In this document: piece after piece, positions 1,069 through 29,235 of the stretch
How the letters are laid out: each line of letters starts with the position of its first letter
Numbering within the stretch: position 1 is the stretch's first letter
Source of the DNA: Alphaproteobacteria bacterium
GTDB lineage: Bacteria; Pseudomonadota; Alphaproteobacteria; UBA9655
Assembly (NCBI GenBank): GCA_027459605.1
Contig: DAIDHR010000022.1
Span: 1-34,608 of the forward strand
Direction: 5' to 3'
Length of the DNA stretch: 34,608 nt
The notes under the pieces: generated by a model
The model's input: the letters and a program-made list of their open reading frames with translations, nothing else
What the model was told of the DNA's origin: nothing
The model's database searches: none
Program-made: the position numbers and the translations under genes

Positions 1069-2610
1069 ATGGATTTTATAGATAGACATCCGAACTCTAT
1101 ATATTACCTTGGTTTGTTTTTAGTTATAACTTGGCCTTTTTTTAGTTTCTTATCAAGCTCAACTAACAATCTTGAGGCTTCATATTTCCAACTCGCAATG
1201 ATCTTCGCTGCTTTTTTTGTCATTGCCTTGGCTCTCTGTGAAATAGTGAGAAGGGTATTCAAACTCGATTCTTTAACCATTTTAATTCTTTTTGCTTTTA
1301 TATATATATCGCTTTTCTACTATCAAAACTATGCACCTATTTTTTCGAGTATTGTCAAAGGGATGGAAGAAATTTTTCCACTTCAAAGGATTTATTTATT
1401 AGCAATATATTTAGTTCTTGGAAGCCTAATTCTTTTTATGGCTTCAAAATTTAAGGCCTTTCGTTTTGCGAGTTTAACTTTTATATTTGTTGTTTTTCTT
1501 TTTAGTTTCGGAGAATTTATAAGTATTACGATTATAAATAATTTATCAACAAGGGAAGAGCGGTCTATTTCAACTTCTGAAAATGAAAAGGCAACCATAG
1601 CAAATTATGAGTTAAAAAAGAGGCCAAATATATATTTCCTTCTTATGGATGCTTTTCCCCGTCATGATAATCTTCTCAGTGAAAGGGACAATTCTTCATT
1701 TTTGAATTTCTTTAAAGAGAGAGACTTTTTGGTTGCAGATCAGGCCTATTCCAATTATTCAAATAGCTGGCCATCATTTTCTTCTATTTTTAAGATGTCC
1801 TATGTACAAACAAAAGATATAATTAGGCATGATGTTCTGTCACCTGACAAAATTGTTTTTAAGATTCTAAAAAATAACAATTATGATATCGTTGTCATAC
1901 CGTCTCCCTATGCAGCATTTAATGGAAGGAATGTTGCAAATACTCTTATTTACCAAAATGCTGTATTAGGATGGCTTGTCTCTGATACGAGTAAAGAATT
2001 TTTTCACCAATCAGTCCTAAGAGATTATATACAAGGTGTAATTGGAAAACACTTGTATTTTTCTGTACCGGAAGTAGAAAAAATTTACACCTTAAATACT
2101 TCCAAACCTAGATTTGTTTTAATGCACTTTATGCAGTTTCATGATTATGTATTTGATAAGAATTGCAATATTTCTACACCAAAAAAGAATATTCCATATA
2201 TGGTAGGCAATATTTTTGGCGGGAAATTGGGTGATATGAAAATCAATTCAGCTTGTCATGAAAATCTAGTAGAAAATATAATTAATTTAATCATTTCAAA
2301 AGATCCAAATGGAATAATAATTGTTCAATCTGATCATGGTCCTTGGTATTGGCGATTTGGATATAGCCGAAGGGTAGATTTTAATAGGGGATATGGTATA
2401 TTTTCTGCAATGAGGCTACCTAATATAAATGTGCCTCCAGAGATTCAAGACTACCTGAAAAGTTCGCCAAGCCCAGTTAACGATTTTCGTATTGTATTTG
2501 CCCTTTTAGCGGACAAAAAGCCAGAACTACTCCCTTATGAAGCTTTTGTTTACGATACAAGCACGGGGAACATAACGAATAACACCAAAATGAGATATAA
2601 GGAAGAATAG
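1069..2610 (+). CDS. Membrane-anchored sulfatase/phosphoglycerol transferase-like protein (copy 1)
   Basis: The 513-residue product has about five membrane helices in residues 12-155 and a large soluble domain from about 185 to the end, the architecture of LtaS/OpgB-type and EptA-type enzymes of the alkaline phosphatase superfamily, whose catalytic domain faces the periplasm. Family landmarks are visible: the first metal Asp in NIYFLLMDAFP (D194), an NSWPSFSS segment (232-239) aligning with the N-T-x-P-S-x-x-S region that carries the nucleophile in relatives, with Ser233 in the usual Thr place, histidines in LMHFMQFHDY (353, 358), and SDHGPW (D422, H423). It probably moves a phospho- or sulfo-substituent on surface glycans or lipids; the substrate is unknown. 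It is followed after 114 bp by a close paralog. The ribosome site (agaaggg) is rather far from the start, about 15 bases. Confidence 0.8.
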   Translation: MDFIDRHPNSIYYLGLFLVITWPFFSFLSSSTNNLEASYFQLAMIFAAFFVIALALCEIVRRVFKLDSLTILILFAFIYISLFYYQNYAPIFSSIVKGMEEIFPLQRIYLLAIYLVLGSLILFMASKFKAFRFASLTFIFVVFLFSFGEFISITIINNLSTREERSISTSENEKATIANYELKKRPNIYFLLMDAFPRHDNLLSERDNSSFLNFFKERDFLVADQAYSNYSNSWPSFSSIFKMSYVQTKDIIRHDVLSPDKIVFKILKNNNYDIVVIPSPYAAFNGRNVANTLIYQNAVLGWLVSDTSKEFFHQSVLRDYIQGVIGKHLYFSVPEVEKIYTLNTSKPRFVLMHFMQFHDYVFDKNCNISTPKKNIPYMVGNIFGGKLGDMKINSACHENLVENIINLIISKDPNGIIIVQSDHGPWYWRFGYSRRVDFNRGYGIFSAMRLPNINVPPEIQDYLKSSPSPVNDFRIVFALLADKKPELLPYEAFVYDTSTGNITNNTKMRYKEE

Positions 2611-2724
2611 TAAAAGTACTTTTTTGAAGTTAGATTTGTAGAGAATTATTTTCCTTCATCAGGCTTTAAATCGTAATTAACGCCGGAATTCTGTCCCTTT
2701 CTGAAGAGATGATAAAAGCAGGCC

Positions 2725-4260
2725 ATGAATTTTACAGATAAGTCACATAATTTATTGTTTTACCCTGGGCTTTTTGCGGTTGTAGCTTGGCCATTTCTTA
2801 GCTTCTTATCAAGTCCGATTAATAATCTGGAGGCCTCTTATTTTCAGCTCGCATTAATCTTTTCTGCCTTTTTCCTTGTCAGTTTAATATCTTGTGAGAT
2901 CGTGAAAAGGATATTCAAGCTCGATTCTTTAATCATGTTAATTCTTTTTGCTTTTTTATATATATCTTTTCTTTATTATCATGATTATGCGGTAATTTTT
3001 TCGAATATTGTTAAAAAAACCCAAGGAATTTTCCCCCTTCAAAGAATTTATCTATTTGGGATCTATTTAGTTTTTGGATGCATTCTTCTTTTTTATGCTT
3101 CAAGATTTAAAGCTTTTCGTTTAGCAAGTCTAACCTTTATCTTTGTCGTTTTTCTTTTCAGCCTTGGGGAATTTTTAAGTTTAAGTTATATAAATCACTC
3201 ATCAACGAAAAGAACATCAACTATATTAGAGAATAAAAATAAAAAAAATGAATTATATTCATTTGAATTCAAAATAAAACCCAACATTTATTTCCTTATT
3301 CTTGATGCATTTCCTCGTCATGATATTCTTCTCAGCAAAAGGGATAATTCAGCATTTTTGGAGTTCTTTAAGAAAAAGGGTTTTTTAGTCGCTGATCAAG
3401 CCTATTCAAATTATTCAAATAGCCCCCCTTCATTTTCCTCTACGTTTGAGATGGCTTATGTGAAAAACGAAGATATAGTTAGGCATGACGTGCTCTCCCC
3501 TCAAAAGGAGGTTTTTACAATTCTTAAAAATAACAATTACGACATCATTTCTGTACCTTCGCCTTATGCAGCCTTTAGCGGTAAGAATGTAGCAAATAAA
3601 GTCATTTATAAAAATAATATACTAGGATCCCTTTTATCTGACACAAGCCAAGAATTTCTTCGCCGGTCTGTCCTTAGGGATTATTTGCAAGGTGTATTTG
3701 GAAAATATTTATATTTTTCAACGCTTGAGATAGAAAAAGTGTTGGCTCTAAAAGGTCCAAGACCATTATTTGTTTTTATACACTTTATGCATTTTCATGA
3801 CTATGTATTTGACAATACATGCAATATTGGAATACCAAAAAGAGATATCCATTATCAGGTTGGTAAAGTTGTTGGAGCAAACATTGGCGACATTAAAGGA
3901 AACTCAGCATGCTTAGAAAATTTAGTTGAAAAAATCGTCAACTTGATTGTGCTAAAAGACCCTCAAGCCATTATACTTGTTCAATCTGACCATGGGCCTT
4001 GGTATTGGCAATATGGATTTCCGCGGCGCGAAGATTTTGATAAAGGATTTGGCATATTTTCTGCAATCCGGCTCGCAAACGTTAATACCCCAACCAGGAT
4101 TCAAGAATACCTGAAAGATTCACCAAGTCCGGTTAACGATTTTCGGATTATATTTGCCCTTCTAGCTGGGAAAGAGCCAGATTTGCTTCCTTATAAAGCT
4201 TTTCATTGGGCAGAAGGCCAAACAGCAGACGTGACGAAATTCAGGTACAAAGAAGAATAA
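2725..4260 (+). CDS. Membrane-anchored sulfatase/phosphoglycerol transferase-like protein (copy 2)
   Basis: This 511-residue protein is a tandem paralog of 1069-2610, collinear over its whole length with no large gap. The shared N-terminal membrane block includes the NNLEASYFQLA segment. The catalytic landmarks are kept: NIYFLILDAFPRHD, NSPPSFSS with the same Ser in the nucleophile position, IHFMHFHDYVFD and QSDHGPWYW. The most variable part is the linker between the last helix and the catalytic domain (about residues 158-182) and the extreme C-terminus. Conservation of every active-site element in both copies argues that both are functional and that the duplication has split into two substrates or two growth conditions. 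It converges on clpX with a 59-bp gap without an evident terminator. Confidence 0.8.
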   Translation: MNFTDKSHNLLFYPGLFAVVAWPFLSFLSSPINNLEASYFQLALIFSAFFLVSLISCEIVKRIFKLDSLIMLILFAFLYISFLYYHDYAVIFSNIVKKTQGIFPLQRIYLFGIYLVFGCILLFYASRFKAFRLASLTFIFVVFLFSLGEFLSLSYINHSSTKRTSTILENKNKKNELYSFEFKIKPNIYFLILDAFPRHDILLSKRDNSAFLEFFKKKGFLVADQAYSNYSNSPPSFSSTFEMAYVKNEDIVRHDVLSPQKEVFTILKNNNYDIISVPSPYAAFSGKNVANKVIYKNNILGSLLSDTSQEFLRRSVLRDYLQGVFGKYLYFSTLEIEKVLALKGPRPLFVFIHFMHFHDYVFDNTCNIGIPKRDIHYQVGKVVGANIGDIKGNSACLENLVEKIVNLIVLKDPQAIILVQSDHGPWYWQYGFPRREDFDKGFGIFSAIRLANVNTPTRIQEYLKDSPSPVNDFRIIFALLAGKEPDLLPYKAFHWAEGQTADVTKFRYKEE

Positions 4261-19993: not shown

Positions 19994-20998
19994 ATGGCAC
20001 AGCCCTTACTACAAGATGCTAAAAATTATGATCCACATGGTCTTTTGGGACAACCAGCTCCTCCGCAACCTCCTCTGCACCCAATGGTAACAGGAGGAAA
20101 CTATGTTCCATCTCCTCCTCCTTTACCCATAAACAATATAAGCATGCCCAGTAGTGAACAAACAAAAGGAAACATTGTGTATATGAGCAAAATTTCGTTG
20201 CTCACTATAGCTTTTAGTTTAACCCTACTTGGTGCATTTACTTTTTTGAGCGGTTTTCTTTTAGGTACATGGTTTACAACCCCAGTACCCCCCCCTTATT
20301 CTTCTGTAATGAGCTCAAGGGAAACTCCTGCCTTAGGACTTTCGTATCCTGAACAACCTATAGTCCAGCAACCGAGACCTAGTTCACAAAAAAACAAGGT
20401 TCTTCAAACTTTTGTAGAGGAAACAAACCCGGCCGTGAGTAGCGCAATTAGTGAACCTATAGCTTCGAATACCCCAAGGTATTTAAGCCCTCTTGTCACT
20501 GCAACTCAAAGGGCGATTGGAGAAGAGGTAGGCCAAAGGGTTCAGCAGGAAGTAGGCCAACAGCTAGGACAATATTCCCCTCAACCTACTTCTCCTGAAA
20601 ATACCCTTCAACACACACCTCCTTACCAACTTTCAACAGGAGAAATTCATCCCCCTCTTCCTACCTTTTCTCCAAAAGGAGCTCCATCCCTGGGCTCTCC
20701 TGGGGCAACTTCACCTCTTTCCGCTGATAGAGGAAATGAGCTCTACACAGTCCAACTTGGGGTGTATGCCGCTAAAGATAATGCTTATGCCCTTGTCAAC
20801 CATTTGCAAGGATTGAACCATACATCCCATGTAACTGAGGGGAAAGCATCGGACGGAAGCAATATATATTATGTTCACAGTGGGCTTTACAATGACTATA
20901 CTACCGCCTTAGAAGCAGCCACTCAATTTTCGTCATCTCAAAATATTCCAGGTGCGATCGTTGTCAAAGTCTCCCCTAATCATAAAAGTGCTTCATGA
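19994..20998 (+). CDS. Membrane-anchored SPOR-domain protein, first gene of the T6SS operon
   Basis: The 334-residue product is a bitopic membrane protein: a proline-rich cytosolic N-terminus (1-60), one membrane helix (about 66-91), a long Pro/Gln/Ser-rich periplasmic linker (95-250), and a C-terminal SPOR domain (about 253-330, YTVQLGVYAAKDNAYALVNHL...YYVHSGLY). SPOR domains bind denuded glycan strands of peptidoglycan, mostly at division sites. The gene overlaps tssJ by 4 bp (ATGA), so the two are translationally coupled, and an AAAAGG ribosome site precedes its own ATG. T6SS membrane complexes usually need a peptidoglycan-binding module, and none is seen in TssL here; this protein is a good candidate for it. 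It could instead be an unrelated division protein sharing the operon. Confidence 0.8.
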   Translation: MAQPLLQDAKNYDPHGLLGQPAPPQPPLHPMVTGGNYVPSPPPLPINNISMPSSEQTKGNIVYMSKISLLTIAFSLTLLGAFTFLSGFLLGTWFTTPVPPPYSSVMSSRETPALGLSYPEQPIVQQPRPSSQKNKVLQTFVEETNPAVSSAISEPIASNTPRYLSPLVTATQRAIGEEVGQRVQQEVGQQLGQYSPQPTSPENTLQHTPPYQLSTGEIHPPLPTFSPKGAPSLGSPGATSPLSADRGNELYTVQLGVYAAKDNAYALVNHLQGLNHTSHVTEGKASDGSNIYYVHSGLYNDYTTALEAATQFSSSQNIPGAIVVKVSPNHKSAS

Positions 20999-21732
20999 GT
21001 TCAGGAATGATATCACAATTACGGGAAATAACGTCACTCCTCATTTTGTTAGGTATGCTAGGGCTTTCTGGATGTTCTAATGAAAATCTCCCTGAGCTTT
21101 ATATTGAAAGTGTTTCTATTTACACTGAACCCGATACAAATCAAAATTCAGCCACAGCAGTTGATCTTGTCATAATTTATGATGAAGAACTTGTGAAGAT
21201 CTTAGGACGAATGTCAGCGGCACAGTATTTTGCCTCCTCAAAACAGCTTCTTCTAGATAACCCTTCCCTACTAGACATATGGCATTGGGAACTTGTTCCT
21301 GGACAAATTGTCCAAGATTTTTCACCCCCTCAAGAGGAGGGTGATTCTTATGCAGCGTATGTATTTGCCAACTATCTTACACCTGGATCTCATCGAATCA
21401 AAGTCTCACCACATGGAATTGTGAAAGTACTTCTCATGAAAAATGATCTTAAAAATTTGGCAGAATATGAACTCCACGAAGCAAGGACAGGTACAACCAT
21501 GTCTGATGTTGCAAGTGAAATTGAGGAACCTGAAGAAGAGTATAAAATCAAACTAGGTCCCATTAATGAACTTCCACGCCCTTGTAAAGTGCCTCCCCCT
21601 CACCCGATCCAAAATCCTAACGAACAGTGTTGGGCTGGTCCTCCAAAGAATTATATCCCAAGGAAACCTATTCCGATTGTAACTCGGCCTTTAAACCCCC
21701 CACCTGTGCTTCGGAATCCATATAGAAAATAA
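20995..21732 (+). CDS. tssJ: T6SS outer-membrane lipoprotein, TssJ-like
   Basis: TssJ is the lipoprotein that links the TssLM complex to the outer membrane. The 245-residue product has a signal peptide with lipobox LSGC (Cys27) and a domain (about 35-165) of the right size and character: ELYIESVSIYTEPDTN, TAVDLVIIYDEELVKIL, WHWELVPGQ. The final 60 residues are proline-rich and basic, an extension beyond the usual TssJ length. Assignment rests on the lipobox, operon position directly before tssK and general pattern; sequence conservation of TssJ is low, so a different T6SS lipoprotein is possible. Nine bp separate it from tssK. Confidence 0.7.
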   Translation: MSSGMISQLREITSLLILLGMLGLSGCSNENLPELYIESVSIYTEPDTNQNSATAVDLVIIYDEELVKILGRMSAAQYFASSKQLLLDNPSLLDIWHWELVPGQIVQDFSPPQEEGDSYAAYVFANYLTPGSHRIKVSPHGIVKVLLMKNDLKNLAEYELHEARTGTTMSDVASEIEEPEEEYKIKLGPINELPRPCKVPPPHPIQNPNEQCWAGPPKNYIPRKPIPIVTRPLNPPPVLRNPYRK

Positions 21733-21741
21733 GGTGAAAGA

Positions 21742-23079
21742 ATGGCGAAATTAAATATTGATCCCATCCAATGGCATGAAGGTATGCTTCTTATGCCTCA
21801 ACATTTCCAGCAAACCGATATCCGGGTGGAAAATCTAATTAACTATTATATGTCTCATTCTTTTCCATTTTTTTGGGGGGTTGTTCAGCTTAAAATCGAT
21901 GAAGCTCTTTTAACAACAGGGTTATTCCGTCCTACTGAACTGGAAGCCATCATGCCAGACGGACTTTTAGTAACAGATCTTCCAAAAACAAAAACTCCTT
22001 TGCAACTGGATTTATTACCTTTCCAGGATAAACTAGAAATAAGCCCTTATTTCATATACTTATGTATTCCTCAAGAAACCGTGACAGAAGTGACAGGAGA
22101 AATATCTCGTTACACCTCCATGTTAAACCCCAATGTAGTCGATCTTAACACAGGGGAACAAGCAATAGACATTCCGCGGTTGGTTCCCAATCTCTCTCTT
22201 CAACTTGGCCAAGAGCCGCCAGCCCATTTTGTTAGCTTACCACTCGCCCAAGTCACTTATGATGCAAAGAGTTTTTCATTGACAGACTATCTCCCTCCTC
22301 AAGTTCAAGTTGATACCCTGTCGGGTCTGGGTCAGATGTGCAACATACTTGCTCACCGTTTGCGGCAAAAATTGGGATATTTGCAGCAAAAGGTTCAGGC
22401 AGTTGGAGGACAAGTTACACAAGACCCTTTTTTTGAAGAAATAGAAGATGTACGGCTGAAGCTCATTGCAGGCCTTTTGCCCTTTGAGGCAGTCGTTTCC
22501 CTTGAGAAAGCTCATCCCTTTATGATTTATCACGAGTTATGTGCACTTGCTGGCCAAATATCTGGCGTAACTTATGGTGAAATCCCTCCGCGTTTTGAAG
22601 CCTACAAGCACTCTGATCTGCGAAGTACCTTTGGACAAGTTATTGATTATATTGGAAAGGTACTCGATGAGATTGAAGAAAGCTATACGGTCATCCCATT
22701 TACCTTAAAAGACCGTGTGTTCACCTTGCAACTTCAATCAGCTTGGGTTGAAGATCGTCTTGTCTTAGGTGCACGCGCCCAACCAGGCATGACAACAGAG
22801 GAGTTATTAAGCTGGATCAATAATTGCGTCATTGTCACTGATCGATATATTACCCTTGCAAAAGATAATCGTGTATTGGGAGCTAATCGAAAGATTGTTG
22901 CTGAAGTTGCAGCAATGAACCTAGTTCCAGCTCGTGGGGTTCAACTTTTTGTCGTTGATGTAGACCCCCATTATATCGATCCAAAAGGAATTTTGTGTCT
23001 TTTCAACATATCTGACGATGATTTGACCAGGCCCACAGAAGTTGTTCTTTATCAATCTAGCCAGAGAACACTCAGGTAA
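21742..23079 (+). CDS. tssK: T6SS baseplate subunit TssK
   Basis: TssK is the trimeric adaptor that connects the T6SS baseplate to the TssLM membrane complex. The 445-residue product has the normal length and the family's N-terminal signature WHEGMLLMPQHFQQ (residues 11-24), followed by the conserved middle and the C-terminal domain with GVQLFVVDVDPHYID. The ribosome site is AAGGTGAAAG. It is followed by a 119-bp gap with a 17-bp palindrome before tssL, the only sizeable break in the operon. Confidence 0.95.
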   Translation: MAKLNIDPIQWHEGMLLMPQHFQQTDIRVENLINYYMSHSFPFFWGVVQLKIDEALLTTGLFRPTELEAIMPDGLLVTDLPKTKTPLQLDLLPFQDKLEISPYFIYLCIPQETVTEVTGEISRYTSMLNPNVVDLNTGEQAIDIPRLVPNLSLQLGQEPPAHFVSLPLAQVTYDAKSFSLTDYLPPQVQVDTLSGLGQMCNILAHRLRQKLGYLQQKVQAVGGQVTQDPFFEEIEDVRLKLIAGLLPFEAVVSLEKAHPFMIYHELCALAGQISGVTYGEIPPRFEAYKHSDLRSTFGQVIDYIGKVLDEIEESYTVIPFTLKDRVFTLQLQSAWVEDRLVLGARAQPGMTTEELLSWINNCVIVTDRYITLAKDNRVLGANRKIVAEVAAMNLVPARGVQLFVVDVDPHYIDPKGILCLFNISDDDLTRPTEVVLYQSSQRTLR

Positions 23080-23198: not shown

Positions 23199-23978
23199 GT
23201 GGCACGATTTTATAAAAAGAATGAGCGAGCAACTTTCATCGTTGAGAGCTTTGAAGAATTTTATAAGAATGTCTTGAAGCACAAACAACTTGTGTTGGCT
23301 AAACCATGGAAAAGAATAGAAGGAGAAGGCGAATCTTCTCCCAATGCCACTGCAGAATATATTCTTTCAAAGCTTCAAACCTTTCTTGAGGAGCAATCAG
23401 CAAAAGCTTCTTATGGAGGAAGCAGCTTCGAAGAAAATTATTATGATGAAGCTCAGTTCGTAATGGTCGCTCTTGCGGATGAAGTTTTTTTACATTTAGA
23501 TTGGCCCGGAAAAGGGTATTGGGAAGCTAATCTCCTTGAACAACGTCTCTATGATACGCACAGCGCAGGGCAGGTTTTTTTTGAGAGGCTGGATGAGTTA
23601 TTGAAACACAAAGATCCTATAAAAACTGATATGGCAACCCTTTATTTGAATGCATTAGGGCTGGGTTTTAAAGGAAAGTATCGCCATTTTGATGATGCTG
23701 GAGCTTTAAAAAATTACCGTAACCGCCTTTTTACTTTCATTAATCGAAGAGATCCTTATCTGTTTCAGAAAAAAATTCACCTTTTCCCTGATTCATATGC
23801 TCATACTTTGGAAGGAGGAGAAGCCAAAGAACTTCCAAACCTCAGAAACTGGTATCTTGTGTTCACAGGCATCGCTCTTACCTATCTTTTAGCCTCATAT
23901 ATTATTTGGTATGCGGGCACAGCGGAGATCTCGCAAATTGCAAATACAATTGTTACCTATAGCACGACAACGGAATAG
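23199..23978 (+). CDS. tssL: T6SS inner-membrane protein TssL (DotU family)
   Basis: TssL is a tail-anchored protein of the T6SS membrane complex, with a cytosolic helical domain that contacts TssK and TssM. The 259-residue product has the DotU helical domain (with FVMVALADEVFLHLDWPG and the later KGKYRHFD, matching family positions), then a C-terminal membrane helix (about 219-240, LVFTGIALTYLLASYIIWYAG) and a short periplasmic end. It lacks the C-terminal OmpA-like peptidoglycan-binding domain that extended TssL proteins carry. The start is GTG at 23199 with AAAGGAAAG about 10 bases upstream. It is followed closely by tssM. Confidence 0.92.
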   Translation: MARFYKKNERATFIVESFEEFYKNVLKHKQLVLAKPWKRIEGEGESSPNATAEYILSKLQTFLEEQSAKASYGGSSFEENYYDEAQFVMVALADEVFLHLDWPGKGYWEANLLEQRLYDTHSAGQVFFERLDELLKHKDPIKTDMATLYLNALGLGFKGKYRHFDDAGALKNYRNRLFTFINRRDPYLFQKKIHLFPDSYAHTLEGGEAKELPNLRNWYLVFTGIALTYLLASYIIWYAGTAEISQIANTIVTYSTTTE

Positions 23979-23984
23979 GGAGGG

Positions 23985-26900
23985 ATGATGATAAGTGATC
24001 ACTTGACTCGTTTATCTTACTTCTTCCCCTGGAGTCTTGTTGTCGCCCTTATCCTCGCAATTATCTTTGCCATTCTGGGCATTATAATTTTTAGAAGAGC
24101 TCTAAGAAAACAACAGGAACCTGAAGTTGAAAAGGCCTCCCCATTTATCGAGAGGTGTAAGCAATTTTTTGCTCGTTTTGGCTATTTCCCCACTGATCCC
24201 TTAAGTCAGTCTTTCACGTATGCCTTAAAATTGATGCACGAATTTATTGGTGGAGAGCAGTTCCGTTATCAAATGCCTTGGATTGTCATGGTAGGTACCA
24301 GTAATGCTGGGAAAAGTTCTATGCTCCAAAGCTTGGAGTTGGACAGACCAATAGGACGCCCCCATTTTGATTTCAAAGGAGGAGATAAGCCTCTCTGTGA
24401 TTGGGGTTTTTTCAACCACGGCATCGCTTTAGATCTAGATGGAAAAATCGTCCTTGACCCAGTTCACGCAATCTCTGACGAAGCAAATTGGAAACTTTTT
24501 CTCAATTTATTGACTCACCACCGTCCGAAAAGACCTTTAGACGGAGTTGTTTTAACAATTCCAGCTTCTGAATTTGTGGGACAAACAGCCCTTTCTCATG
24601 ACGATATTATGATTCGCGCTGAATACCTTTACGGGAAGTTATGGAAAATGCAGCATATTACTGGTATGAGAGTTCCCATTTATGTTGTTGTAACTAAATG
24701 TGACCTTGTCCCAGGTTTTGATAGCTTTTGTCAATCCATCCCCACTCATAACAGACGAGACATTTTTGGGTGGTCAAATGATCACGCCGTTGATTCAATT
24801 TATGCTCCCGAGTGGATAGATGAAGCTTTTTCTTCTATCAATGAATCTCTTTATCGAGCTCAGGAGGAAATTTACGCCGATGGCAAAACCACCGATAATC
24901 GTGATGGTGTGTTTTTATTCCCGATTGCGCTTAATCAAGTAAAGGGCGGAATAGAAACATATGCAAACCATTTGTTTAAGCCCTCAAGCTATCATGAGTC
25001 ATTCTTTCTACGTGGAATCTATTTTATTGGTGATAGTCACCTTGATAAACCAAGCTCGGAATCTACCTCTGCTTCGGAAGTGTCGTCCCCTTTCCAAAAT
25101 CGAGATGATGAGAAAAAACGCAACCTTTATTTTGTTGATAATCTCTTTGAAAATAAAATCTTCCGAGAAATAGGTCTTGCAAGACCTTTATCTCGTACTC
25201 TTTTGGGCAATACAACGGCAATGAAATATGCCAAGGTTATCACAGCCTTATTAGCTGTTGGTGGTACAATTGCTCTTTTACGCGCCAATGATACACTCCA
25301 GAAAGCAAAAATGAACCTCGTTCCTGCTCTTTCTCAAGTCCAGGTTACGCTAGAAAAAATCCATGGTCAAAACGTTGGGACAGAAGTAGGTCGAGTTTTC
25401 TTTGATGATCAAGCTCAAGTTCTTTTAAATACAATGACTCAAATTAGCGTAAATCATCTTACCTCTCCTTTCATTCCTCCCTCTTGGTTTGATAATTTGG
25501 ATGCGAAAATTAAATATATAATGGGGCTCGCTTATGATCACGTCATTCTTCGATCAATGGCCAACGAATTAATCTATAAAGCTCAACAACTTTTTTCTCT
25601 TGATACAATCATTCCCGTTACAGAACCTGTTGGAAATGGCATTAATCCACTACAAACAAATGAATTTTACCGTTTGAAAAATTATATTGTTGCCGTGCGA
25701 ACATTAGAGCTTGAAGCCAATAAATTTAACGAGTTGGGAATGACATCAAGTTTAAGGGATGTAGCAGATATCATCAAATACTTATTCAATTATGAAATGC
25801 CCGCTGCTTTTTATGAAAATGATGAATATTACCTTGCGGCCTTAAAGCGAACAAACCTCAAGTTGTTTGACTTTGATGGATATCGTGACAATGCCTCAAT
25901 TAAATTACGAAAACTTTTCGACGAGTTTCAGATTTCAACTTTTGATGCAAATCAAATGATCCCAGGGTTAACCAACCTTATAAATGGCCTTGATGAATTT
26001 TCAGGAGCCAGGAATTATACAGCTTATGATGCAGACCTTTTACGTAATATTCTCAACAGTCTCCAAGAAACAGTTGACTCTATTAGCAATCCAGGGTTGC
26101 AATGGATTGATGCTGATCACTTTAATCCAGGTCCCCAATATGAATATGTAATTGGGCTTATCATTGGATCTAACTTTTTCTCAACAACCCTGGCCTCTGA
26201 CCTCATCCGAGAGATTGATCAAAACTTTACAAACTTCAAAAAACGTCTTGGTTCCTTAACTTCTCCACTCATTAAAGGTGGGAATCTCTTTAATGTCGAA
26301 AATGGCATGGCCGTCGCTCGTCCATCTCAAGGAGCTCTCGAACTTCTCGAGGACTTAAAGGCTTTCTTCAATGAACCATTCATGGCAGAAGCAGTGAGTA
26401 AAGCGATTTTAACGACCATTCCTACTGGCTCAATTTTATTGTGGGATACCCTACGTCTTCAAGAAGGGGTCAACCTGGTGGATGTCTATAATAATTTTAT
26501 GAATTCTCGCCTTTTACAAATGCCTAAGGTACTTCAGCCAATCCTTCAAAAAGTTGCGCGAGAAAGCCTTACAAAAAACCTCATTAGCCATATTGCGAAT
26601 GCGGAAATCTTTAGTTCTCAAACTATTACAGGAGGAAATATTTCGCCCGAAGATTCATTGTTGTCACAAGTTCAAAATTACCGAGCTGCTGCCCCCTACC
26701 TTGAGCAGCTTTTATTTGATTTAAAGGCAAACAATGCAAATAACGCCTTTAGTATCTTAAAGAATCTTCTTATTTCTCAAGCCTATAGCCCTATAGAAAA
26801 GCTCGATGAAATTTTAACAGAAGAATCACCTTATGCAATCAAGATGAACTCTTTTGATTGGTGGGATGGAAATTGCATGCTTGGCCTAGAAGCTTTTGGG

Positions 26901-28166
26901 GTTTCTAATCTTACTGAACTCAAAAACTATCTGAACCTCCAAAGGGATCGAATTAACTATTTAGCTCGCGAGTTTGCAGAACCGCTTGTGTCTTTTTTGG
27001 AACAAATTAATAAGGAAGGCATGCCTGGTAATTTGCCCTTAGTCACAAAATGGGTTGGAATTATTAACGAACTAAATGGATATGCTAGAAAAGCCCCAGG
27101 TAACGGGCTTGTGGAGCTGGAAGATTTCATTCTAAATACCCTTAATGAGGTCACACTAGGCACATGTAAAAAATATCTAAGCGCCATTAACAAGTTTCCC
27201 CTCTCCCAAGACTTTTTTGTGAGCATTCTCTTAAACCTGGAAGAAAAACTCCTTAATCGTTGCACTAACCTCTCAGGTTGCGTCTCAGCAGATAGTTATT
27301 CTCAATTAGCCCAATTCTTTAATGTTAATTTAGCTGGGAAATTTCCTTTTGTTAAAACAGTCGAGGATTCTGTTTCTGATGCAGATCCCGAGGATATCCG
27401 CACATTCTTTGAAATGATGGATAGTCAAGGTAGCAACGTGAAAGCAACTTTAAAAGAAGCAACAAATTTGGGACAATCTGGAAAGGATGCTCTTGCCTTT
27501 ATTGAACAAATGGAAAAAGTCAGAAGTTTCTTCGGTGGATATTTAGCTCCAAATTCAACTCTTCCCTACCCAGCCTTTGGCCTTAATATTACCTTTAGAG
27601 TGAATAGAGAAAGAGAAGTTTATGCAAATGAGGTCCTCGATTGGAAATTTACCGCAGGGGATACGACGATTACCATGCGCTCCCCTTCCCATAAATGTTA
27701 CTGGATGTTTGGAAATCCTGTAAAAGTAACATTCCGTTGGGCACTCAATAGTCCACTACAACCTGAGATGGTAGAAGGGATACCGAACTTGGATGTGCAA
27801 GGTGAGAATGCATCCTTTATTTATTCAGGACCTTGGGCGCTTTTAAGGCTTCTACGACAACACCAAGCAGACCCCTGTAATTTTGACTCATTAAAAGATG
27901 AAACCCCCATCACCCTCCGTTTTGATATTCCTTTAATAGGGGATCACACTAGTAAACTAGGAAACGGTACAGAGGATATTGAAAAGGCAAGCGTTTTTGT
28001 CCGATTTGAAACGTCCCCAGTCGCCATGCAGCCGGTGAAAAAAGAACAAACAAGCATGGGACCGCCCCCCAAACCAAATGATCAAAACCAAATCCGTTTG
28101 GGAAAACCTGTTGCTTTGCCTTATTTCCCATACAACGCCCCCCGCCTTGAAACCCCAAGGAGCTAG
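23985..28166 (+). CDS. tssM: T6SS inner-membrane protein TssM (IcmF family)
   Basis: TssM spans the inner membrane and periplasm and forms the channel of the T6SS membrane complex with TssJ and TssL. The 1393-residue product has two N-terminal helices region (about 14-37), a cytosolic NTPase-like domain with intact Walker A GTSNAGKSS (104-112) and a VTKCDL element (236-241), the family FLRGIYFIGD stretch (341-350), a third membrane helix (about 414-433), and a long periplasmic part ending in the TssJ-binding C-terminal beta domain. Length is at the upper end for the family, and the last 30 residues are proline-rich. Two ATGs in a row begin the gene; the second (23988) has better spacing to AGGGAGG. 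The ribosome site of tssA overlaps its end. Confidence 0.95.
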   Translation: MMISDHLTRLSYFFPWSLVVALILAIIFAILGIIIFRRALRKQQEPEVEKASPFIERCKQFFARFGYFPTDPLSQSFTYALKLMHEFIGGEQFRYQMPWIVMVGTSNAGKSSMLQSLELDRPIGRPHFDFKGGDKPLCDWGFFNHGIALDLDGKIVLDPVHAISDEANWKLFLNLLTHHRPKRPLDGVVLTIPASEFVGQTALSHDDIMIRAEYLYGKLWKMQHITGMRVPIYVVVTKCDLVPGFDSFCQSIPTHNRRDIFGWSNDHAVDSIYAPEWIDEAFSSINESLYRAQEEIYADGKTTDNRDGVFLFPIALNQVKGGIETYANHLFKPSSYHESFFLRGIYFIGDSHLDKPSSESTSASEVSSPFQNRDDEKKRNLYFVDNLFENKIFREIGLARPLSRTLLGNTTAMKYAKVITALLAVGGTIALLRANDTLQKAKMNLVPALSQVQVTLEKIHGQNVGTEVGRVFFDDQAQVLLNTMTQISVNHLTSPFIPPSWFDNLDAKIKYIMGLAYDHVILRSMANELIYKAQQLFSLDTIIPVTEPVGNGINPLQTNEFYRLKNYIVAVRTLELEANKFNELGMTSSLRDVADIIKYLFNYEMPAAFYENDEYYLAALKRTNLKLFDFDGYRDNASIKLRKLFDEFQISTFDANQMIPGLTNLINGLDEFSGARNYTAYDADLLRNILNSLQETVDSISNPGLQWIDADHFNPGPQYEYVIGLIIGSNFFSTTLASDLIREIDQNFTNFKKRLGSLTSPLIKGGNLFNVENGMAVARPSQGALELLEDLKAFFNEPFMAEAVSKAILTTIPTGSILLWDTLRLQEGVNLVDVYNNFMNSRLLQMPKVLQPILQKVARESLTKNLISHIANAEIFSSQTITGGNISPEDSLLSQVQNYRAAAPYLEQLLFDLKANNANNAFSILKNLLISQAYSPIEKLDEILTEESPYAIKMNSFDWWDGNCMLGLEAFGVSNLTELKNYLNLQRDRINYLAREFAEPLVSFLEQINKEGMPGNLPLVTKWVGIINELNGYARKAPGNGLVELEDFILNTLNEVTLGTCKKYLSAINKFPLSQDFFVSILLNLEEKLLNRCTNLSGCVSADSYSQLAQFFNVNLAGKFPFVKTVEDSVSDADPEDIRTFFEMMDSQGSNVKATLKEATNLGQSGKDALAFIEQMEKVRSFFGGYLAPNSTLPYPAFGLNITFRVNREREVYANEVLDWKFTAGDTTITMRSPSHKCYWMFGNPVKVTFRWALNSPLQPEMVEGIPNLDVQGENASFIYSGPWALLRLLRQHQADPCNFDSLKDETPITLRFDIPLIGDHTSKLGNGTEDIEKASVFVRFETSPVAMQPVKKEQTSMGPPPKPNDQNQIRLGKPVALPYFPYNAPRLETPRS

Positions 28167-28167
28167 C

Positions 28168-29235
28168 ATGTCTCAATATACGGAGTTAGATCAAAATCTT
28201 GACCTTCTTCTAGAGCCAATCCAGGGTAAGAAGCCCTGCGGTAACTCCCTACGTTATACAGAAGTTTATGATCAAATTCGCGAAGCTCGCAGAGAGGAGG
28301 ACGAAAAACTTCCGAAGGGAGTTTGGAAAACTGAAGTCAAGAAAGCTGATTGGGAACAAGTTAACTACCTTTGCCAAGAAGCCCTTAAAGAGAAAACCAA
28401 AGATCTTCAAATCTCGGCCTGGCTTACAGAGTCTTGGCTTCATTTAGAAGGAGTTAGAGGTCTAGCTCGAGGATTGGAGCTTCTTTTAAACCTCACCCGT
28501 AAATTCTGGAATGATATCCATCCCGAGATCAGTAAGGGTGGATATGAACTGCGGATCGTCCCCTATGAGTGGATAAATACGCGCTTAAGCGAAGAATGCC
28601 AATGCATCTTAATCAGTATCCCTTCGGATCATGCCCCTCTTCCCTATCGCCTCCTCGATTATAATGAAGCCAACAGACTCGAGTTATCTCAAAAGCAAGG
28701 AGTACCCCACCCCCCTGAAGAAAAGCAACCATCTCTTGCAAAAATTTCTTTGAGCATTGATCAAACACCTATTTCCTTTTACCGCCACATAGATGAGAGC
28801 TGCACGTTGGCACTAAAGATGATGTCTGAACTTGAAGACGAGCTTCGAATACATTTGGGAGGGGAAGCTCCCTCATTTTATAAGTTACGCGAAAGAGTTG
28901 ATTCAATACATCGATTTGCACGCCAAATTCTAGATGAAAGAGGAGAAAAAAAAGAAAATAAAAAAAGTATTCCGAAAGAAGTCTCCCACCCAACCTTCCC
29001 CAAAAAATCCTTATCTAGCTCCATTGAAAATCGCGAGCACGCTTATGCCATTTTAGGAGAAGTAGCGTCTTACCTTGAACGTATTGAACCCCATAGCCCA
29101 ACCCCATACCTCATTCATCGGGCAATCTCATGGGGGAATATGAACCTATCCGAGGTTTTTTCTGATACCCTTCAAAATGGTCAAGACCTTTCTTTACTTC
29201 TCAATCTCCTAAATATTAAAAAGGAAACTCTTTAA
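28168..29235 (+). CDS. tssA: T6SS protein TssA (ImpA family)
   Basis: TssA caps the growing T6SS tail and coordinates sheath polymerisation. The 355-residue product has the ImpA N-terminal domain (about 8-130): DLLLEPIQGKKPCGNSLRYTEVYDQIREARREED, written here in family terms as LLxPI-G-xPxGxxLRY, then WxxV, the LTESWLHLEGVRGLARGL stretch and FWNDIHPE. A variable linker with basic runs (268-290) leads to a C-terminal segment EPHSPTPYLIHRAISWGNMNL, typical of the class with a short C-terminus. The start is ATG 28168, one base after the tssM stop, with AAGGAG upstream; an in-frame ATG 90 bp earlier lies inside tssM and is unlikely. It is the last gene of the operon. Confidence 0.92.
   Translation: MSQYTELDQNLDLLLEPIQGKKPCGNSLRYTEVYDQIREARREEDEKLPKGVWKTEVKKADWEQVNYLCQEALKEKTKDLQISAWLTESWLHLEGVRGLARGLELLLNLTRKFWNDIHPEISKGGYELRIVPYEWINTRLSEECQCILISIPSDHAPLPYRLLDYNEANRLELSQKQGVPHPPEEKQPSLAKISLSIDQTPISFYRHIDESCTLALKMMSELEDELRIHLGGEAPSFYKLRERVDSIHRFARQILDERGEKKENKKSIPKEVSHPTFPKKSLSSSIENREHAYAILGEVASYLERIEPHSPTPYLIHRAISWGNMNLSEVFSDTLQNGQDLSLLLNLLNIKKETL

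Follow-up and report, generated by a model that had tools for sequence, protein, structure and literature searches.

A SPOR-domain protein encoded directly before tssJ: a predicted wall-binding accessory of type VI secretion systems in Alphaproteobacteria

Anchoring of the type VI secretion system (T6SS) to the cell wall is known mainly through OmpA-type domains and from few model bacteria. One such module is TagL (SciZ) of enteroaggregative E. coli, which has three transmembrane (TM) segments and an OmpA/Pal/MotB wall-binding domain and is recruited to the TssJLM membrane complex (PMC8253398, PMC10433429). In the so-called evolved TssL proteins a C-terminal OmpA domain is fused to TssL, and the wall-binding function thus resides within the membrane complex. 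SPOR domains have also been associated with secretion, with 14 DotU/TssL-SPOR fusion proteins being described by Broms et al. 2012 (PMC3326028). Other T6SS-linked accessories that bind or cut the wall are TagN, TagP, TagW, TagV and TagX; compared by description, TagV carries an SH3b domain, TagX is a peptidase and the others present a predicted wall-binding domain, and a SPOR description was not found for any of them in the literature searched. In the T6SS of related symbionts a tssK-tssL-tssM-tssA arrangement has been reported, with no SPOR protein described (PMC8163844).

The locus studied here lies in a stretch of 34,608 nucleotides (the window), which corresponds to contig C22 of an alphaproteobacterial genome of 1.91 Mb in 85 contigs. 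Its T6SS operon opens with a gene for a 334-aa protein (19994-20998, + strand) that is bitopic, with a single TM helix, a Pro/Ser/Gln-rich linker and a C-terminal SPOR domain. Like TagL, this protein would be an inner-membrane accessory with a periplasmic wall-binding domain, but it has one TM helix and a SPOR domain, and its gene is coupled to tssJ. Relative to evolved TssL, the TssL of the window is short and the wall module would be a separate protein with another fold. The DotU/TssL-SPOR fusions share with it a SPOR domain serving the T6SS, the difference being that the domain belongs there to TssL and here to a separate, TssJ-paired bitopic protein. No description of such a protein was found in the literature searched, and it is taken as new within that scope. 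The SPOR-based module is best read as a variation on the theme of TagL and evolved TssL. Moreover, Pfam finds OmpA domains in the TssL of each of five canonical T6SS tested from the class and in none of the TssL proteins from the tested systems with a SPOR protein, in line with SPOR and OmpA being two alternative wall modules.

The + strand of the window carries, in this order, the SPOR gene, tssJ, tssK, tssL, tssM and tssA. The divergent tpiA gene (- strand) lies 91 bp upstream of the SPOR gene, which is therefore the head of the operon; a promoter scan found no forward-strand site. The SPOR gene overlaps tssJ (20995-21732, + strand, 245 aa) by 4 bp (ATGA). Downstream on the same strand, tssK (21742-23079) was identified by PF05936 (E 5.9e-42) and by TIGR03353 above its cut-off, tssL (23199-23978) by PF09850 (E 3.6e-26), tssM (23985-28166) by PF14331 (E 2.2e-51), and tssA (28078-29235 for the listed ORF, the real start being probably further downstream) by PF06812 (E 8.5e-37) and TIGR03363 above its cut-off. 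The initial annotation had described a bitopic SPOR protein overlapping tssJ at the operon head and a TssL without a peptidoglycan-binding extension. The former description is borne out by the ORFs, the PF05036 match, the AlphaFold2 model and the divergent tpiA, and the latter by the domain content of TssL, where Pfam detects DotU (residues 58-235 of 259) and nothing else. None of the three OmpA-domain genes of the genome lies on either of the two contigs where T6SS genes were found.

The TM helix of the SPOR protein (residues 67-94; 20192-20275, + strand) is modelled by AlphaFold2, for the greater part with a pLDDT of about 90. Lys and Arg residues precede it and none directly follow, from which an N-in/C-out topology is predicted. 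The SPOR domain (residues 249-326; 20738-20971, + strand) is delimited by Pfam, fold and residue counts: PF05036 matches residues 249-324 (E 1.9e-8, 34.9 bits against a curated cut-off of 21), and the model displays at 250-326 the RNP-like SPOR fold made of two alpha-beta repeats, which aligned best to the solved SPOR domains of RlpA (Z 10.2-10.4, including RlpA with denuded glycan), CwlC and DedD. Pfam found no OmpA/Pal/MotB domain in the protein. Outside the TM helix and the SPOR domain the model is of low confidence. This applies to a conserved helix of the periplasmic linker (residues 162-190; 20477-20563, + strand), supported by the alignment, in whose region P161, L164, P166 and L167 are invariant across the GTDB order of the host genome; this helix is a possible docking site.

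Regarding ligand binding, Q254 and the aromatic residue 258 correspond to RlpA Q270 and F274, positions described as part of the glycan groove of RlpA (PMC6895207), and they are kept in 14/15 (Q254) and 15/15 (Y/F258) of the order's SPOR proteins. Where RlpA R309 and FtsN R285 have Arg the protein has Tyr, and a His occupies the position of RlpA R311. Residue 295 is H or Q within the order and mostly R or K in other T6SS SPOR proteins. The basic patch of known SPOR domains is itself built from non-homologous residues (PMC6895207). The groove Gln and aromatic are kept and the basic patch is altered; the domain may bind denuded glycan.

The gene overlapped by the SPOR gene, called TssJ-like in the initial annotation, has no Pfam match, T6SS-SciN included, and receives no NCBIfam name; T6SS-SciN gives weak, sub-threshold matches to the TssJ of the Caedibacter and Caedimonas relatives. 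Its assignment as TssJ is supported along three lines. Cys27, the lipobox Cys of a predicted outer-membrane lipoprotein signal, follows a hydrophobic leader and is invariant in all 15 TssJ proteins of the order. The predicted structure, a transthyretin-like fold with a helical insert at residues ~35-160, followed by a variable Pro-rich tail, matches the solved TssJ proteins Lip, SciN, TssJ1 and the EAEC core (4a1r, 3rx9, 3zhn, 6ixh) with Z 11.1-11.5 and rmsd 2.4-2.9 over 109-120 residues. TssJ proteins and their complexes take all of the five top ranks in the structural comparison, the next match being IglE at 7.8 and the others at or below 6. Finally, the TssJ family profile matches the gene before tssK in about 40 other T6SS loci. 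A match of TssJ to designed Ika propellers in a single-sequence phmmer search of the PDB was dropped, as the family profile does not keep it.

Within the GTDB order, tssK is present in 15/17 genomes and the SPOR gene in the same 15, where it stands directly before tssJ and upstream of tssK in every case (15/15, loci read individually). An inserted ORF separates tssJ from tssK in one of these genomes (G001); its operon is broken between tssJ, tssK, tssL and tssM by repeated 324-aa ORFs and one further ORF, probably insertion sequences (L043:3657-10712), and the SPOR gene and tssJ are still adjacent. The two genomes without tssK (G006 and G002) also miss the SPOR gene. Both hold tssC and G006 has no tpiA, which suggests an assembly gap, and for this reason they were dropped as negative controls.

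A search of genome contigs with the SPOR protein as query returned no match, because its sequence is of low complexity and fast-evolving. Loci outside the order were taken from a TssK-family alignment scan and a class-wide draw, and were read directly. Among the 64 T6SS-bearing alphaproteobacterial genomes drawn outside the order, the SPOR-tssJ pair occurs in 18, from about 13 families, the two genes overlapping by 4 bp or being separated by a short gap. PF05036 independently backs most of the 18 pairs, and Pfam confirms those of Caedibacter, Caedimonas, Pacificispira and Arenibaculum, where the SPOR gene directly precedes tssJ; in two very small genomes (G163 and G261) the SPOR domain falls below the Pfam threshold and was assigned with our own profile or by eye. 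On a quick TssK tree, which does not fix how often the pair was gained, its distribution is clustered, requiring 9 changes (7 with corrected labels) where shuffling gives a mean of 29.9. With missed cases corrected, the TssK clade of the window carries the pair in every one of its 22 members. Many carriers are relatives of symbionts living inside protists.

TssJ-TssK systems devoid of the SPOR gene also exist. The gene is absent beside the related T6SS of Azospirillum and Paracaedibacter/Odyssella, and it is therefore not universally needed in such systems. The expectation that it always accompanies the T6SS operon in relatives thus held in 15/15 genomes of the order and failed in these lineages; conversely, no relative carrying the gene without a T6SS was found among the genomes sampled. 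Different genes occupy the place before tssJ elsewhere. In Azospirillum-type T6SS this is a gene for a helix-turn-helix-like protein (L140:4331-4879, L157:4761-5369), and in one family a gene for a glycine-rich lipoprotein, located directly before tssJ or overlapping it (L241:2071-2535, L245:1781-2239, L248:1176-1649). A bitopic SPOR-less protein is encoded directly before tssJ at L147:4666-5277 and L163:3644-4174. One record labelled Mesoflavibacter (Bacteroidota; L074) has a T6SS with a TssK nearly identical to that of the alphaproteobacterial G391, and is probably a mislabelled MAG.

The SPOR gene appears to be tied to tssJ rather than to the rest of the operon. In three clear cases where tssJ lies away from tssK (G149, G364 and G261), the SPOR gene precedes tssJ at a distance of 31, 12 and 28 bp, respectively, with tssJ and tssK being about 103 kb apart on a single contig in G261. 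It follows that the SPOR gene goes with tssJ, not with tssK. The remaining genomes with an unlinked tssJ show no adjacent SPOR gene, and none of the loci examined has a SPOR gene beside a tssK lacking tssJ. Paired contrasts of TssJ adjacency and SPOR presence gave only 4 supported independent pairs, too few for power.

A 2025 review stated that the T6SS of Holosporineae apparently lack TssJ (PMC11909080). The profile built here detected diverged, often unlinked TssJ candidates in 22/27 genomes checked, which bears on that statement. Such candidates, often far from tssK, occur in the Holosporales-like genomes of L212, L213, L215, L217-L225, L230 and others; the simple pattern used does not recognize a lipobox in all of them.

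The TM helix itself carries a signature, F84-L-S-G87-F-L-L-G91 in the window protein (20243-20266, + strand). Its general form, F-x2-G-F-[LFIG], is present in the best TM windows of 15/22 lineage representatives where shuffles expect 0.49, a figure to be taken as a description and not as a pre-planned test, since the signature was first noticed in these same sequences. It is nearly absent from other TM windows, and nearly every hit there is an additional member of this family.

The linkage in 15/15 genomes of the order, its recurrence in about 13 other families and the persistence of the pair when tssJ is unlinked make a T6SS-dedicated wall-binding protein a well supported prediction. This is the part of the wall-anchor reading proposed in the initial annotation that stands; the protein is not obligate in every such system. 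Operon position is by itself no proof of a shared complex. Judging from sequence and model, we nevertheless consider it probable that the protein serves the T6SS membrane complex as a dedicated accessory subunit and links it to peptidoglycan, with a wall anchor or recruiter working with TssJ being the best reading. The TM helix would pack through its F-x2-G-F face against TssL, TssM or itself, the long periplasmic linker, itself of low complexity, would span to the wall and the SPOR domain would grip peptide-stripped glycan, the TssJLM complex being thereby held at, or built at, amidase-processed wall. The SPOR protein would in this manner take the job that OmpA-type domains perform in TagL and evolved TssL, via an unrelated domain. 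It can be suggested, tentatively and with considerable doubt, that the F-x2-G-F plus SPOR family is a new T6SS subunit whose cassette with TssJ couples assembly to peptidoglycan that is denuded or septal, whereby firing sites would track wall remodelling; the septal bias would follow only by analogy with known SPOR domains in division. If the preferred reading is true, a wall-binding domain unrelated to OmpA and with a narrower ligand, denuded glycan, has been paired with TssJ in lineages among which relatives of protist symbionts are found, and the cell site where such T6SS are built becomes testable.

Alternatively, the SPOR protein could act in division or housekeeping and simply have the T6SS operon as its neighbour. 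SPOR proteins are usually division proteins, and FtsN, DedD, DamX and RlpA share the fold, with the TM-linker-SPOR plan being FtsN-like. Yet PF05036 has one to three further matches per genome of the order, and in the window's own genome, as well as in G006 and G002, the other two SPOR genes are an FtsN-like one with argS and nagZ as neighbours and an RlpA-like one next to dacC. The argS-SPOR-nagZ locus of the own genome lies separately on contig C7. The T6SS-linked gene is thus an extra gene, distinguished also by its own TM signature, and it is found next to tssJ time and again in many families, also where tssJ is unlinked from tssK, which renders this explanation highly improbable. A less remote alternative, still quite improbable, is that the true T6SS component consists of the TM helix and linker, which would help the assembly of TssJ, TssL or TssM, with the SPOR domain as an optional add-on. 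The wide conservation of the TM signature speaks for it, as do bitopic proteins devoid of SPOR that are found in the same place in G021, with the F-x2-G-F signature, and in G126 and G229, with a similar F-x2-G-Y. Two genomes with a SPOR-less bitopic protein before tssJ indicate that the domain is dispensable in some, but most carriers retain it, including genomes of about 0.6 Mb.

Instead of a load-bearing anchor, the SPOR protein could be a placement and wall-opening factor that senses amidase-made denuded glycan and brings a hydrolase, or the membrane complex as it forms, to this site, possibly the septum. The peptide-stripped glycan to which SPOR domains bind is enriched at the septum (PMC6895207), and local wall cleavage is required for T6SS assembly (PMC8253398). 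In G021, in addition, a LytM-type peptidase gene directly precedes that of a SPOR-less TM protein, with tssJ following (L233:1360-2560). This arrangement was seen once, however, and the window operon contains no hydrolase gene, so that a placement role appears unlikely next to the preferred role as a wall anchor or recruiter.

Away from the T6SS operon, adjoining ORFs of 513 and 511 aa at positions 1069-4260 of the window are both weakly matched to sulfatases, over one and the same stretch of residues, and look like a tandem duplication.
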